This document shows positions 40,025 through 45,946 of a DNA stretch of 64,000 bases, piece by piece (the stretch's first letter is position 1; every line of letters begins with the position of its first letter). The stretch is from Spiribacter curvatus (lineage in GTDB: Bacteria > Pseudomonadota > Gammaproteobacteria > Nitrococcales > Nitrococcaceae): positions 1,550,001-1,614,000 of the forward strand of contig NC_022664.1 of the NCBI RefSeq assembly GCF_000485905.1. The letters run 5' to 3'. The notes under the pieces are model-generated. The model worked only from the letters and a program-made list of their open reading frames with translations. It was not told the origin of the DNA and searched no databases. The position numbers and the translations under genes were made by a program.

Positions 40025-41299
40025 ATGCCTGTCGTCAGCCTGGGGCTCAACCATGAATCCGCACCGCTCGCCGTCAGGGAGCAGGTGGTTCTCCCGGCGG
40101 AAGCGCTGGACAGTGCCCTGTCCGCGCTCGCCGATCGCCCCGGTGTGCGCGAGGCGGCGGTGCTGTCCACCTGCAATCGCACCGAGATCTATGCAGTGCT
40201 GGCGCCCGAGGCAACGCCCGCCATCCTGCATCGTTGGCTCGCCAGCCAGCAGGGCCTGGATGCGGACTGGCTGGAGCCCTACCTCTATGTCCACGAGGGC
40301 CGTGACGCGGTTGTCCACCTCCTGCGGGTGACGGCGGGGCTCGACTCACTCGTCCTCGGTGAGCCCCAGATCCTTGGGCAGGCCAAGCTGGCCTATCGCT
40401 CGGCGGCGGATGCCGGGCTGCTCGGACAGATCCTCGAGCGTCTCTTCCAGCATGCATTCTCGCTTGCCAAGCGCGTACGCACCGAGACGGCCATCGGCAC
40501 CCACCCGGTCTCGGTGGCCTTCGCAGCGGTCACCCTCGCGCGACAGATATTCGACCGACTCGATCGTCGCCGGGCCCTACTGATCGGGGCCGGCGAAATG
40601 ATCGAACTGACCGCCCGGCACTTTCGGGAACAGGGCATGGGCGAGCTCGTCATCGCCAATCGCAGCCGCCACCGGGCGGAGGCACTGGCCAGTACCTGCG
40701 GTGGCAGTGCGCTGGGGCTCGATGAGATCGACGCGTTCCTCCCGAAGGCCGACATCATCATCTCCTGTACAGCCAGCAATGAACCGATTCTGAGCCGCGG
40801 GCAGATCCGCACGAGCCTCCGCCAGCGCCGGCATGAGCCGGTCTTCATGGTGGATCTCGCGGTGCCGCGGGACATCGAGCCCAGCGTGGACCGGCTCGAG
40901 GATGTCTATCTGTATACTGTCGACGACCTCCGCGATGTCATTGATCGCAATCAGCGCAGCCGCGCCGCCGCCGCCGAAGAGGCCGAGATACTCGTCGACG
41001 GACAGGCCGAGCGGTTTATGGACTGGGTCCGGACGCTGGATGCGGTCAGCGCGATCCGACGCTACCGCCTGCATGGCGAGCAGCAGCGGGAATATGCCCT
41101 CGAGCAGGCGCAACGCGAGATCAGCGCCGGCCAGCCGCCTGATCAGGTGCTGGAGGCACTGGCGCACCGCCTGACCCGTAAACTCTTGCACCTGCCCACC
41201 CTGGGGCTGCGTGATGCGGCCCGCAGTGGCGATCCGGAAATCATCCGGCAGAGTCATCGCCTGCTGGGCCTCGACGACAGCCGGGACGACAACGAATGA
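40025..41299 (+). CDS. hemA: Glutamyl-tRNA reductase
   Basis: First enzyme of the C5 pathway to haem. The 424-residue product begins [19 protein letters not shown] and has the catalytic Cys50 in [10 protein letters not shown]. Also present are [15 protein letters not shown] and the NADPH-binding segment [17 protein letters not shown]. The lolB/TPR divergent from hemA-prfA arrangement is common. It overlaps prfA by four bases. Confidence 0.97.
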
Positions 41300-42384
41300 A
41301 TGACAATCTGCGCCGCAAACTCCAGAGTCTGCTGGAGCGCCACGAAGAGATCGAGCAGCTGCTCGCCGATCCGGAGATCATCAGCGACAACCGCCAGTTC
41401 ACTCGTCTGTCACAGGAGTACGCACGGCTCGAACCACTGGCGGAGACACTCACGGCGTTCGAATCCACCGAGGCCGACCTTGCCACTGCCGAGGAGCTGG
41501 CCGCGGATGGCGACGAGACCATGCGGGCCATGGCCGAGGAAGAGATCAGCGACGCGCGGGAGCGTCTGGGTGAACTGGAGCGGGCACTGACGCTGCTGAT
41601 GATCCCGGAGGATCCCAATGATGCGCGCAACACCTTCGTCGAGATCCGCGCCGGCACGGGCGGCGACGAGGCGGCACTGTTCGCCGGCGATCTGCTGCGG
41701 ATGTATCTGCGCTACGCCGAGTCTCAGGGATGGAAAACGGAGATCCTCAGCGAGAGCATTGGCGAGCAGGGCGGCTACCGCGAGGTTGTCGCACGGGTCG
41801 CCGGCGAACGGGTCTACTCAAAGCTCAAGTTCGAGTCCGGGGCCCATCGCGTGCAGCGCGTTCCCGCCACTGAATCCCAGGGCCGCATCCACACCTCCGC
41901 ATGCACGGTCGCGATCCTGCCCGAAGCGGCAGAGATCGACGAGATCGAGATCAATTCCGCGGATCTGCGCATCGACACATTCCGCGCCTCCGGCGCCGGC
42001 GGTCAGCACGTCAATAAGACCGATTCCGCTGTGCGCGTGACACACATGCCGAGTGGCGTGGTGGTGGAATGCCAGGAGGAGCGCTCGCAGCATAAGAACC
42101 GCGCCCGGGCGCTGGCGCTTCTACAGGCGCGTCTGATGGATCAACAGCGCGATGCGGCTGCGGCCGAGCGCACCGAAACCCGACGCTTACTGGTGGGGAC
42201 CGGCGATCGATCCGATCGAATCCGGACCTACAACTTCCCTCAGGGACGGGTGACTGACCATCGGATCAATCTCACCCTCTACAAGCTCGAATCCGTTCTC
42301 AGCGGGCACCTGGAGGACATCATCGATCCGCTGACCAGCGAATACCAGGCCGACCAGCTCGCGGCACTGGCGGCCGAGAGCTAG
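41296..42384 (+). CDS. prfA: Peptide chain release factor 1
   Basis: Recognises UAA and UAG and releases the finished chain. The 362-residue product has the GGQ catalytic motif ([14 protein letters not shown], around 234-236), the long N-terminal coiled-coil domain and the anticodon-like region ([17 protein letters not shown]). Its GGQ glutamine is the target of PrmC, whose gene lies 2 kb away (44350-45201), not adjacent as in E. coli. Confidence 0.97.
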
Positions 42385-42407
42385 TCACCCGGGACCGGGC
42401 TGACCGC

Positions 42408-42839
42408 TCAGGCCACCCGCTGCTTTTCGCGGATTTCCTCGAGGGTCTTGCAGTCCACGCAGAGCGTCGCCGTCGGGCGTGCCTCCAGGCGCCGGATACC
42501 GATTTCCACGCCGCACTCATCGCAGAACCCGTAGTCATCCTTACGGATGCGCTCCAGGGTCTTGTCGATCTTGCGGATCAGTTTGCGCTCCCGGTCACGG
42601 GTGCGCAGCTCCAGCGCGAATTCCTCTTCCTGGGTCGCCCGGTCGGCTGGATCCGCGTAATGGTTGGCGTCATCACGCATGTGGCTGACAGTCCGCTCTA
42701 CCTCTTCCTGGAGCTGTTGCTTCCAGGCGCCAAGTATCGACTGAAAATGCGCCAGTTGAGCCTCATTCATGTACGTCTCGCCCTCAGCAAGCGGGTACGG
42801 CTCAATCCCTCGAACAGGCAGGGAAGCATTGTCGGTCAT
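42408..42839 (-). CDS. dksA: RNA polymerase-binding transcription factor DksA
   Basis: Secondary-channel factor that works with ppGpp. The 143-residue product begins at the ATG at 42839, which has GGAGGTAACC directly before it; an earlier ATG at 42863 is rejected. The coiled-coil tip is conserved (DPADRATQEEEFALELR), as is the zinc finger CDECGVEIGIRRLEARP...CVDC with four cysteines. It follows the DAHP synthase gene by 38 bases. Confidence 0.96.
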   Translation of the reverse strand: MTDNASLPVRGIEPYPLAEGETYMNEAQLAHFQSILGAWKQQLQEEVERTVSHMRDDANHYADPADRATQEEEFALELRTRDRERKLIRKIDKTLERIRKDDYGFCDECGVEIGIRRLEARPTATLCVDCKTLEEIREKQRVA

Positions 42840-42875
42840 GGTTACCTCCGTTGGCTCGGCCACGTATTCATCGGG

Positions 42876-42898
42876 CTTCAGGCGATCCGCGCCTGAAG
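42876..42898 (-). repeat. Perfect inverted repeat across the aroG stop codon
   Basis: Arms CTTCAGGCG and CGCCTGAAG (nine pairs) flank a five-base loop. The hairpin contains the last codons and the TGA of the DAHP synthase gene. No T-run follows on the minus strand, so it is not a standard intrinsic terminator. It may stabilise or partly terminate the upstream mRNA ahead of dksA. Confidence 0.5.
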
Positions 42899-43951
42899 CG
42901 GTTGGGAGAGTTTACCGGCCGCCTCGCGTAGCATACGCTCAGTCGTTGCCCAGTCGATGCACCCATCGGTGATGGAGACGCCGTACTCAAGGGCTGAGGG
43001 GTCATCGCCCAGCTTCTGCTTGCCCCAGCCGATATGGCTTTCGATCATTGCCGCGACAATGGACCGATTCCCTTCGACAATCTGATTGACGAGATTATCC
43101 ATCACCAGCGGCTGCAGGCCAGGATCCTTGCTTGAATTGGCATGGCTGCAGTCGACCATCAGGCAGGCCGACAACCCCTCATCGGCCAGGGCCTTTTCGC
43201 ACAGCGCGATGCTGACCGAATCATAATTCGGCTGATCTCCACCCCGCAGGACGACATGCCCATACCGGTTCCCCGCGGTGCGGATGATCGCCGAGCGGCC
43301 GTCATGCTGGGTGATGCCAAGAAAACTGTGCGGGCTTGCCGCCGAGCGCATGGCGTTGATGGCGACATCGAGACTGCCATCCGTACCGTTCTTGAACCCG
43401 ACCGCCGTCGACAGTCCGCTCGCCATTTCCCGGTGCGTCTGCGACTCGGTGGTGCGTGCGCCGATGGCGGTCCAGCTGATCAGATCCCCCAGATACTGCG
43501 GCGTGATCGGATCCAGCGCCTCGGTTCCGGCGGGCAGCCCCAGCTCGGCCATGTACAGCAGCAGCTCGCGCGCCCGGCGCAGGCCCTCTTCGATGTCGAA
43601 ACTGTCATCCATGTACGGATCATTGATCAGCCCCTTCCAGCCCACGGTGGTCCGTGGCTTCTCGAAGTAGACCCGCATGACGATGAAAAGCGAGTCACTG
43701 AGCTCGTCATGCAGTCCCTTGAGGCGGCGGGCGTAATCCTTGGCCGCCTCGAGGTCATGAATCGAGCAGGGACCGATCACCACCAACATACGCGGATCCT
43801 GGCCATCGAGAATGGCCTCCACCGCCTGCCGGCCGGCCTGCACGGTCTCCATGGCTCTGTCCGAGAGCGGCTGCCGGGCCTTGAGATCGGCCGGCGTTGG
43901 CAGCGGATCCTGCGAGAGGACGTTGAGGTTATCGATACTGGTTTCGCTCAT
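42878..43951 (-). CDS. aroG: 3-deoxy-7-phosphoheptulonate synthase, class I
   Basis: First shikimate-pathway enzyme (DAHP synthase), condensing PEP and erythrose 4-phosphate. The 357-residue product has class I hallmarks: VVIGPCSIHDLEAAKDYA, VYFEKPRTTVGWKGLINDP, GARTTESQTHREMASGL, VDCSHANSSKD and IESHIGWGKQ. Which aromatic amino acid inhibits it cannot be read from the sequence; the aroG symbol is a class label. Divergent from the Trm112-like gene. Confidence 0.93.
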   Translation of the reverse strand: MSETSIDNLNVLSQDPLPTPADLKARQPLSDRAMETVQAGRQAVEAILDGQDPRMLVVIGPCSIHDLEAAKDYARRLKGLHDELSDSLFIVMRVYFEKPRTTVGWKGLINDPYMDDSFDIEEGLRRARELLLYMAELGLPAGTEALDPITPQYLGDLISWTAIGARTTESQTHREMASGLSTAVGFKNGTDGSLDVAINAMRSAASPHSFLGITQHDGRSAIIRTAGNRYGHVVLRGGDQPNYDSVSIALCEKALADEGLSACLMVDCSHANSSKDPGLQPLVMDNLVNQIVEGNRSIVAAMIESHIGWGKQKLGDDPSALEYGVSITDGCIDWATTERMLREAAGKLSQPLQARIA

Positions 43952-44086
43952 GACGTGTTCGTACCCACTGTGCTGTTACTCATCTCAGCCGGCATGGTAG
44001 CCCGCAGCCCGGATTTTCTCCATGACGGGCGTCGCCCGAAGCGCAGTCTGCTATCCTTCAGGATCATTCGTACAGGTTCAATCGCC

Positions 44087-44353
44087 ATGGCCATCGATCG
44101 CAAATTACTCGACATTCTTTGCTGTCCGGTTACCAAACAGCCGGTGCATATGCTCGGACGGCGTGAACTCAAGGCCCTCAACGAGCGCATTGCCGGGGGC
44201 GGCGTCCACTATCAGGATGATTCCCCCGTGGAGCAGCCACTGGAGGAAGGACTGATCACCGCCAATGAGGAGCGCGTCTACCGGGTGGATGATGGTATCC
44301 CCGTCATGCTCGAGGAGCGAGCCATCAATCTGCGCGCCGCCGATCTGAAGTGA
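44087..44353 (+). CDS. Trm112/YcaR-family small protein
   Basis: Protein of 88 residues with the family's two conserved ends: RKLLDILCCPVTKQPV near the N-terminus and VDDGIPVMLEERAINL near the C-terminus. Between them is an insertion of about 30 residues, making it longer than the roughly 60-residue E. coli YcaR. The first CPxC zinc pair reads CPVT and no second pair is present, so zinc binding is doubtful. In eukaryotes and archaea Trm112 activates several methyltransferases including the release-factor enzyme. Its stop overlaps the prmC GTG, which suggests a similar partnership here (inference). Confidence 0.85.
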   Translation: MAIDRKLLDILCCPVTKQPVHMLGRRELKALNERIAGGGVHYQDDSPVEQPLEEGLITANEERVYRVDDGIPVMLEERAINLRAADLK

Positions 44354-45201
44354 GCGACGGGGTCACCCTTGCACAGGCGCAGCGTCGCGGCGTGGAACTG
44401 CTCGCTGCCACGCCGGCCGATGCCGACATCGACGTCGACTGGTTGCTCACCGCTGCGACGGGCCTGAGTGCCGCCCAGCGCCGCGCTCATCCGGAAGATC
44501 CGATCACCGAAACCGCCTGGCGACGCTTCCAGGCCCTGCTGCAGCGCCGCTATCGAGGCGAGCCAGTGGCTTATCTACTGGGCCGTCGGGGGTTCCTCGA
44601 TTTCGAGCTGGTGGTGACGTCGGCCGTGCTGATCCCCCGTCCAGAGACCGAGCATCTGGTGGAAGCGGCATTGGAGACGCCCGCCGCCCGGGTGCTGGAA
44701 CTGGGCACCGGCAGTGGCTGTATCGCCATCGCTCTGGCCCGCGCCTGGCCTGCTGCCACCGTCGACGCCACTGACTGCTCGGCGGAAGCCCTGACAGTCG
44801 CCACGCAGAATGCGGCTATCCTCGGCGCCGACGGGATTCGTTTCCGGCTGGGAGACTGGTACGAACCGGTCTCCGGATCGCGGTACAACCTGATCGTCGC
44901 CAACCCGCCCTACATTGGCGAGCAGGCACCGGAACCGGACCAGGGCGATGCCCGGTTCGAACCGCGCCTGGCGCTGCGGGCGGAGGAATCCGGCCTGGCG
45001 GCATTGCGGACGATCATCGTCGGCGCGCCCCGGCATCTGGAGCCGGCCGGACGGATCTGGCTCGAGCATGGCTATGATCAGGGGCCCGCTGTCAGGGAGT
45101 GCCTGGCGGCGCATGGTTTCCAGGCCATCGAAACCCGGCGCGACCTGGCGGGTCATGAGCGGGTCAGTGGTGGCCGTCTGGGTGACACCCCGCATGAATG
45201 A
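44350..45201 (+). CDS. prmC: Release factor glutamine methyltransferase
   Basis: Methylates the GGQ glutamine of RF1 and RF2. The 283-residue product has an N-terminal helical domain, the SAM-binding segment VLELGTGSGCIAIALARAWP and the catalytic NPPY at 185-188. The GTG start overlaps the Trm112-like stop (GTGA). In E. coli prmC directly follows prfA; here dksA and aroG lie between them. Confidence 0.95.
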   Translation: MSDGVTLAQAQRRGVELLAATPADADIDVDWLLTAATGLSAAQRRAHPEDPITETAWRRFQALLQRRYRGEPVAYLLGRRGFLDFELVVTSAVLIPRPETEHLVEAALETPAARVLELGTGSGCIAIALARAWPAATVDATDCSAEALTVATQNAAILGADGIRFRLGDWYEPVSGSRYNLIVANPPYIGEQAPEPDQGDARFEPRLALRAEESGLAALRTIIVGAPRHLEPAGRIWLEHGYDQGPAVRECLAAHGFQAIETRRDLAGHERVSGGRLGDTPHE

Positions 45202-45946
45202 TGAACAGCTGATCCGCTACAGCCGACAGATCATGGTCCCCGGCCTGGATCTGGCCGGTCAGGAGCGGCTCCTGGCGAGTCGGATATTACTGGTAGGGGC
45301 CGGTGGCCTCGGCTCAGCCGTCGCCCTGTACCTGGCCGCATCGGGCGTCGGCCATCTCAGCGTCGCCGACTTCGATCAGGTCGAGCTCACCAACCTGCAG
45401 CGCCAGATCCTCCATGGCACATCCGATGTGGGCCGACTGAAAACCGATTCCGCCCGTGAGCGGCTGGGTCAGATCAACCCCGACGTGAGCGTCGAGCCCG
45501 TCAACGAGCCGCTCGGCGCCGACAACCTGCCCGCCATTGTCGCCGGAGTGGATCTCATCATCGACGGCTCGGATAACTTCGCCACCCGCTTTGCGGTCAA
45601 CAGCGCCTGCGTCAACGCGCGAAAACCGCTGATCTCCGGGGCCGTCATCGGAATGGACGGTCAGATCGCGGTGTTCCGACCCGACCTGGATGGTCCCTGC
45701 TATCACTGTGTCTACCCCGATATCGGCGAGGAGGCCCTGAGCTGCAGCGAGACCGGCGTCCTGGGCCCATTACCCGGCGTCATCGGCAGTCTACAGGCGG
45801 TCGAGGCCATCAAGGTGCTGACCGGCCTGGGTGAGCCGCTCAATCACCGGCTCCTGAGTGTCGACGCCCTCAGTCAGCGATGGCGCCGGCTCGAACTGCG
45901 CCGCGACCCCGCCTGTCCGGTCTGCGGTCGCGGTGCGGATCAGTGA
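45194..45946 (+). CDS. moeB: Molybdopterin-synthase adenylyltransferase-like protein
   Basis: ThiF/MoeB/HesA-type E1-like enzyme at 250 residues that activates the C-terminus of a sulfur carrier (MoaD or ThiS). It has the ATP loop LVGAGGLGSAVALYLAASGVG, the NLQRQILH motif, the adenylation region IDGSDNFATRFAVN, and zinc-type cysteines CYHC and CPVC. Substrate choice between MoaD and ThiS cannot be set from sequence. It starts eight bases inside prmC and overlaps the hslO end by seven bases. Confidence 0.9.
   Translation: MNDEQLIRYSRQIMVPGLDLAGQERLLASRILLVGAGGLGSAVALYLAASGVGHLSVADFDQVELTNLQRQILHGTSDVGRLKTDSARERLGQINPDVSVEPVNEPLGADNLPAIVAGVDLIIDGSDNFATRFAVNSACVNARKPLISGAVIGMDGQIAVFRPDLDGPCYHCVYPDIGEEALSCSETGVLGPLPGVIGSLQAVEAIKVLTGLGEPLNHRLLSVDALSQRWRRLELRRDPACPVCGRGADQ

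Follow-up and report, generated by a model that had tools for sequence, protein, structure and literature searches.

In Spiribacter curvatus, a small gene of the Trm112 family is located directly upstream of prmC, the gene of the release factor N5-glutamine methyltransferase, and the same arrangement is seen in every genome of its order (Nitrococcales in the GTDB lineage) that yielded both genes. The window analyzed here is a stretch of 64,000 nucleotides (NC_022664.1, positions 1,550,001 to 1,614,000), in which the pair is confirmed as real, and the phylogenetic range of the trm112-prmC adjacency is now defined as this one order. The explanation that we favor, with moderate confidence, is that the small gene encodes a YcaR-type partner protein of a methyltransferase, which became part of the prmC operon at the root of the order and is not a subunit of PrmC.

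In the Eukaryota and Archaea, the partners of Trm112 include a homologue of PrmC (PMC5372719). In reviews, the function of bacterial Trm112 is described as unknown and PrmC as active as a single chain (PMC5372719, PMC7708063), and our literature searches found no partner of bacterial Trm112. Because the two genes are joined in all genomes of the order that yielded both, the order offers a clean, testable case for the function of this family in the Bacteria. If the two proteins are partners, then a partner of bacterial Trm112 can be named and the GGQ methylation of the three domains of life is tied closer together; if they are not, the pairing reflects operon history.

Gene layout of the locus

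The features of the locus are listed in Table 1. Profile searches matched the trm112-like gene to PF03966 (Trm112p) at 39.7 bits (cut-off, 22) and prmC to TIGR03534 (RF_mod_PrmC) at 261 bits (cut-off, 199). The identities of both genes, which had been proposed from the nucleotide letters and open reading frames alone (hereafter, the sequence-only reading), were thus upheld, and the GTGA overlap between them that it described is present in the window. The end of prmC and the start of moeB overlap as well, by 8 nt. There is no obvious Shine-Dalgarno sequence before the GTG start of prmC in positions 44330-44349 (ctgcgcgccgccgatctgaa), and because of this the arrangement would be suited to translational coupling. 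The host genome is a single contig of 1.93 Mb with one Trm112 match, and the closest homologues among named relatives are records of Spiribacter and the Ectothiorhodospiraceae.

Table 1. Genes and overlap at the trm112-prmC locus, in positions of the window.
Feature	Position	Strand	Details
prfA (RF1), gene of a PrmC substrate	41296..42384	+	TIGR00019, 531 bits
dksA	42408..42863	-	TIGR02420, 170 bits
aroF/G/H-type DAHP synthase	42878..43951	-	TIGR00034, 486 bits; divergent, upstream of trm112
trm112-like ORF	44087..44353	+	ATG start at 44087, TGA end at 44353, 88 aa; Trm112 family, long form, YcaR/UPF0434 counterpart
GTGA start/stop overlap	44350..44353	+	4 nt, from the sequence; possible translational coupling
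prmC, release factor N5-glutamine methyltransferase	44350..45201	+	GTG start, 283 aa; TIGR03534, PF17827
moeB-like adenylyltransferase	45194..45946	+	NF004281, 332.7 bits; third gene of the unit

In many other bacteria, prfA and prmC adjoin each other. In the window (41296-45201), the opposite-strand dksA-aroG pair and trm112 stand between them, and this layout is order-wide.

The long form of the Trm112-like protein

The match of the protein to the YcaR equivalog NF008806 was 22.9 bits, below the threshold of 126. Its first cysteine motif reads CCPVT (in the context LCCPVTK), so that neither the CPxC nor the C/D pair of a zinc-knuckle Trm112 is found; the loss of the CPxC pair was correctly read from the sequence at the outset. 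The 40-position Pfam model is stretched over residues 4-70, which leaves an insert of ~27 residues. The closest solved relative is XF2673 of Xylella fastidiosa (PDB 2k5r), with an E-value of 4.8e-17 over residues 3-81 (79 residues), the insert included, and the alignments with 2k5r and of 23 members assign the protein to the insert-bearing long form of the 2k5r type. Among 23 diverse members, 16 alignment columns are invariant and the mean column identity is 64%; along with the insert, the members of the order have conserved residues N32, V48, L56, T58, and N60.

With a profile built from the 23 members and a threshold of E<=1e-12, the long form was detected in 21/370 gammaproteobacterial genomes; in the order itself, 37 of the 39 genomes carry it. 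Because each genome with the long form has one Trm112 match in a Pfam survey, the long form seems to take the place of the short one (YcaR). The aligned long forms have a CPxT/CPxS motif, and the short forms have CPxC in 28/30 cases and CPxT in 2/30, in a sample that is biased because it consists of the 30 best-scoring ones; CPVT is also found in the short form NMA0874 (2jr6).

The sequence-only reading had supposed that, with the lost cysteine pair and a gained insert of roughly 30 residues, the protein may be adapted to a new partner. The insert itself was borne out, at a slightly smaller size; its PrmC-specific origin was not. CPVT or CPVS and the insert are ruled out as PrmC-specific adaptations, because relatives that are nowhere near prmC carry both, and an adaptation of the Trm112-like protein to PrmC is not supported by these comparisons. 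The solved Xylella protein 2k5r likewise has such a motif and the insert. In addition, residues L7, L8, L11, P14, Y65, D69, I71, P72, and L75 are conserved alike in ~20 long-form loci outside the order with no adjoining prmC. The residues that form the partner-binding face in eukaryotic Trm112 (LL..L and IP..L) show little or no variation among prmC-adjacent and non-adjacent long forms, and because they are kept in both, their conservation points to a common partner that would not be specific to PrmC.

Five positions of the protein are order-specific. The most striking is R63 (window 44273-44275), which is invariant in the order (36/36 members) and occurs in 2/20 long forms elsewhere; shared descent would account for this pattern equally well as a new partner. 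On a tree of the long forms, prmC adjacency takes two changes, and a single clade is not rejected (p-AU 0.42), the columns being too few to resolve the question.

Conservation of the adjacency

In the order, trm112 and prmC are immediate neighbors in 36/36 genomes yielding both genes, with trm112 on the 5' side and the two on one strand; these genomes represent five families and 16 genera. This count leaves out two genomes in which both genes are missing, probably through assembly gaps (G007 and G028), and G036, in which trm112 lies at a contig end and a prmB/prmC chimera occupies the position of prmC on a different contig. In the latter (L167 3976-4731, contig C25), a prmB-like 5' part (TIGR03533, 295 bits) runs into the tail of prmC and is followed by moeB-hslO-gatB; it is probably a metagenome-assembly artefact that joined two paralogues. 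As judged from the first usable start codons, the distance from the stop of trm112 to the start of prmC is -8 to +40 nt in 35/36 sequences, and the 4-nt GTGA overlap is found in all of the sequences measured from the same genus and in some from other genera.

Outside the order, the adjacency was not found. In a sample of 140 genomes of the phylum, with coordinates compared by eye, the window's own genome was the only one with an adjacent pair, and the nearest other case had the two genes ~14 kb apart; on this sample, widespread adjacency is rejected. The sequence-only reading would have been refuted by a lack of conserved adjacency in relatives, and the adjacency is in fact conserved there, completely within the order, with no case in the other genomes of the 140. 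PrmC was present in all seven of the phylum-sample genomes that had no Trm112 match. At 20 long-form loci outside the order, the neighbors, named by eye from the sequence and not by profile, are thrS, fhs/peroxiredoxin, purE/purK, yidD, aroG, and others, and not prmC.

Fusions of bacterial Trm112 to methyltransferases have been reported, and in agreement with this, we observed Trm112p matches within open frames of ~330-775 aa (in G421, G443, G433, G409, G415, and others), whose partner domains could name a general partner.

Regions of up to 19.5 kb from 20 genomes of the order were compared with 18 genes of the window. They reveal a block of ~17 kb that is syntenic across the order, in the arrangement prs-ispE-lolB-tpr, hemA-prfA, dksA-aroG, trm112-prmC-moeB, hslO-gatBAC, and mreBCD, where the names prs, ispE, lolB, tpr, hslO, gat, and mre come from reading the sequence and not from profile searches. 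Within the block, trm112-prmC is kept in 20/20 regions, dksA-aroG in 19/20, ispE-lolB in 13/13, and the gatC/mreB junction in 13/13, and we know of no joint function for the last three pairs. Because such unrelated neighbors are nearly as well kept, conserved adjacency is weak evidence for joint function here, and its use as proof is weakened accordingly. In its favor, the trm112-prmC pair holds while its borders change: aroG and trm112 are contiguous in only 6/20 regions, moeB is absent or turned around in several genomes with trm112 and prmC still together, and in one genome (G038; L110, 9622-10741) the two genes are turned around together against the orientation of the remaining block, with no moeB between prmC and aroG.

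In many relatives, a second copy of clpX lies between aroG and trm112 (L093, L095, L096, L099, L106, and others; for example, L095:10281-11540). It is divergent, stands upstream of trm112, and scored 386-560 bits against TIGR00382 in the 7/7 relatives tested, besides the main clpX elsewhere. The genome of the window has one clpX only and no copy upstream of trm112.

PrmC and its possible contact with Trm112

The PrmC of this locus is canonical. Besides the equivalog profile match, it has the N-terminal domain PF17827 (PrmC_N, 58.5 bits), the methyltransferase domain, and the NPPY motif, and it matches the structures of Escherichia coli PrmC (2b3t/1t43) with E ~3e-52; the modelled PrmC of a relative superimposes on 2b3t with a TMt of 0.97 at 48% identity.

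The residues of N6AMT1 that contact Trm112 in the human complex have been listed (PMC6796863). We mapped them onto PrmC by motif landmarks, counting V, I, L, M, F, W, Y, and C as hydrophobic; the motif spacing of N6AMT1 that we assumed for this mapping was checked against the residue numbers in the contact list. Of the 36 PrmCs with an adjacent trm112, 2, 4, 1, and 8 have a hydrophobic residue at the positions corresponding to I48, L72, L87, and I101, respectively, and of the 39 PrmCs with none, 2, 2, 2, and 5 do; these four positions are mostly polar in both groups. The equivalent of M74 is less often hydrophobic in the order (8/36 vs. 21/39), and the groups do not differ at those of A83, P99, and L108, which are hydrophobic in each. 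In other words, a hydrophobic Trm112-binding surface of the Mtq2 type was not found on PrmC in this comparison of 36 with 39 sequences, nor was there any sign of its gain.

In a few relatives, trm112 and prmC lie in the same frame, and in one of them (L102) the intervening stop was read as glycine to give a single chain for AlphaFold2. This fused chain, which is tethered, has no non-partner control, and is judged by pTM only, gave a pLDDT of 96 and a pTM of 0.85; PrmC alone gave a pTM of 0.92. A value of ~0.75-0.78 is expected for an unplaced Trm112, and 0.85 corresponds to a mean placement error near 6 Å, again for a tethered chain with no non-partner control. The model is suggestive of a contact between Trm112 and PrmC.

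Possible roles of the small protein

On our preferred explanation, the protein is the one Trm112/YcaR counterpart that this bacterial genome has, in the CPxC-less, insert-bearing long form. By analogy with its eukaryotic and archaeal relatives, it would most likely be a small accessory subunit, stabilizing or activating, of a methyltransferase other than PrmC, and it may dock on this partner through its conserved N-terminal LL..L segment and C-terminal GIPVML strand, as eukaryotic Trm112 does. The gene may have become the first in a trm112-prmC-moeB transcription unit in the common ancestor of this gammaproteobacterial order, and would have been kept there together with the other genes of a block that rearranges slowly; PrmC would act alone, as in E. 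coli, and coupling with trm112 would mainly set its expression. This explanation is supported by the long forms away from prmC that share the conserved residues, the lack of adjacency in the other genomes of the phylum sample, the presence of PrmC in the seven genomes of that sample with no Trm112 match, the nearly equal conservation of unrelated pairs in the block, the N-terminal domain and E. coli-like fold of PrmC, the mostly polar residues at its contact positions, and the published descriptions of PrmC as active by itself. Counted against this explanation are the persistence of the pair while its borders change, the pTM of the fused model, and the invariance of R63.

An alternative is a true partnership with PrmC in this order, in which Trm112 would stabilize the enzyme or boost its SAM binding, as for HEMK2/Mtq2, and translational coupling would co-supply the two subunits. 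We regard this as possible but unlikely. It fits the complete conservation of genes that overlap or nearly touch, their joint inversion in L110 and their retention where the flanks change, the conserved methyltransferase-docking residues of Trm112, a fused pTM above that of an unplaced Trm112 with its implied error of ~6 Å, and the fact that Trm112 has a homologue of PrmC as its partner in eukaryotes and archaea (PMC5372719). However, PrmC has no hydrophobic patch of the N6AMT1 type and shows no shift relative to PrmCs with no Trm112 neighbor, the long form exists away from prmC, the fused model was obtained with a tethering linker and has no non-partner control, and the phylum sample holds no adjacency elsewhere. 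That the order's CPxC-less long form binds and assists PrmC through a different or re-evolved surface, and so gives a bacterial GGQ methylase a Trm112 subunit, seems to us rather doubtful.

A purely regulatory link, in which trm112 would provide prmC with a promoter and with ribosome loading, and two translation-related proteins would be co-regulated and make no contact, agrees with the GTGA overlap, the lack of an evident Shine-Dalgarno sequence before the GTG, and the tight spacing in nearly all relatives; the spacing of other pairs in the block is just as tight, however, and no promoter-like site was detected by a search that is uninformative for this organism, and we consider such a link improbable. 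It is hardly credible that a decayed ycaR remnant with no function is carried ahead of prmC: the lost CPxC pair would be in keeping with decay, but the invariant columns and the mean identity among the 23 aligned members indicate strong constraint, and wherever the ORF was found in the order it is intact.

Comparison with known systems

The solved long form of Xylella, XF2673 (2k5r), resembles the protein studied here in its length class, its insert, and the absence of the CPxC pair; it belongs to a different organism and is itself functionally uncharacterized. With the short YcaR/UPF0434 form of E. coli and others (e.g., 2pk7, 2jr6), the protein shares PF03966, the N-terminal DxKLLxIL(A/V/C)CP, and the C-terminal (D/G)IPVML, whereas the short form has ~60 aa, usually a CPxC, and no central insert. 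In E. coli, ycaR forms an operon with kdsB, is listed as non-essential, and has a CRISPRi effect that is listed as polar on kdsB (PMC5954155); in the S. curvatus genome, kdsB is located ~660 kb from the trm112-like gene.

The locus resembles the eukaryotic and archaeal Trm112-Mtq2/HEMK2 holoenzyme in that a gene of the Trm112 family adjoins that of a homologous GGQ methylase. HEMK2 requires Trm112, whereas PrmC is described as working alone, and the PrmC of this locus has its own N-terminal domain and does not have the hydrophobic contact surface. Compared with bacterial PrmC (2b3t, 1t43), it has the same domains, motifs, and fold, and the only notable difference is the trm112 gene in front of it.
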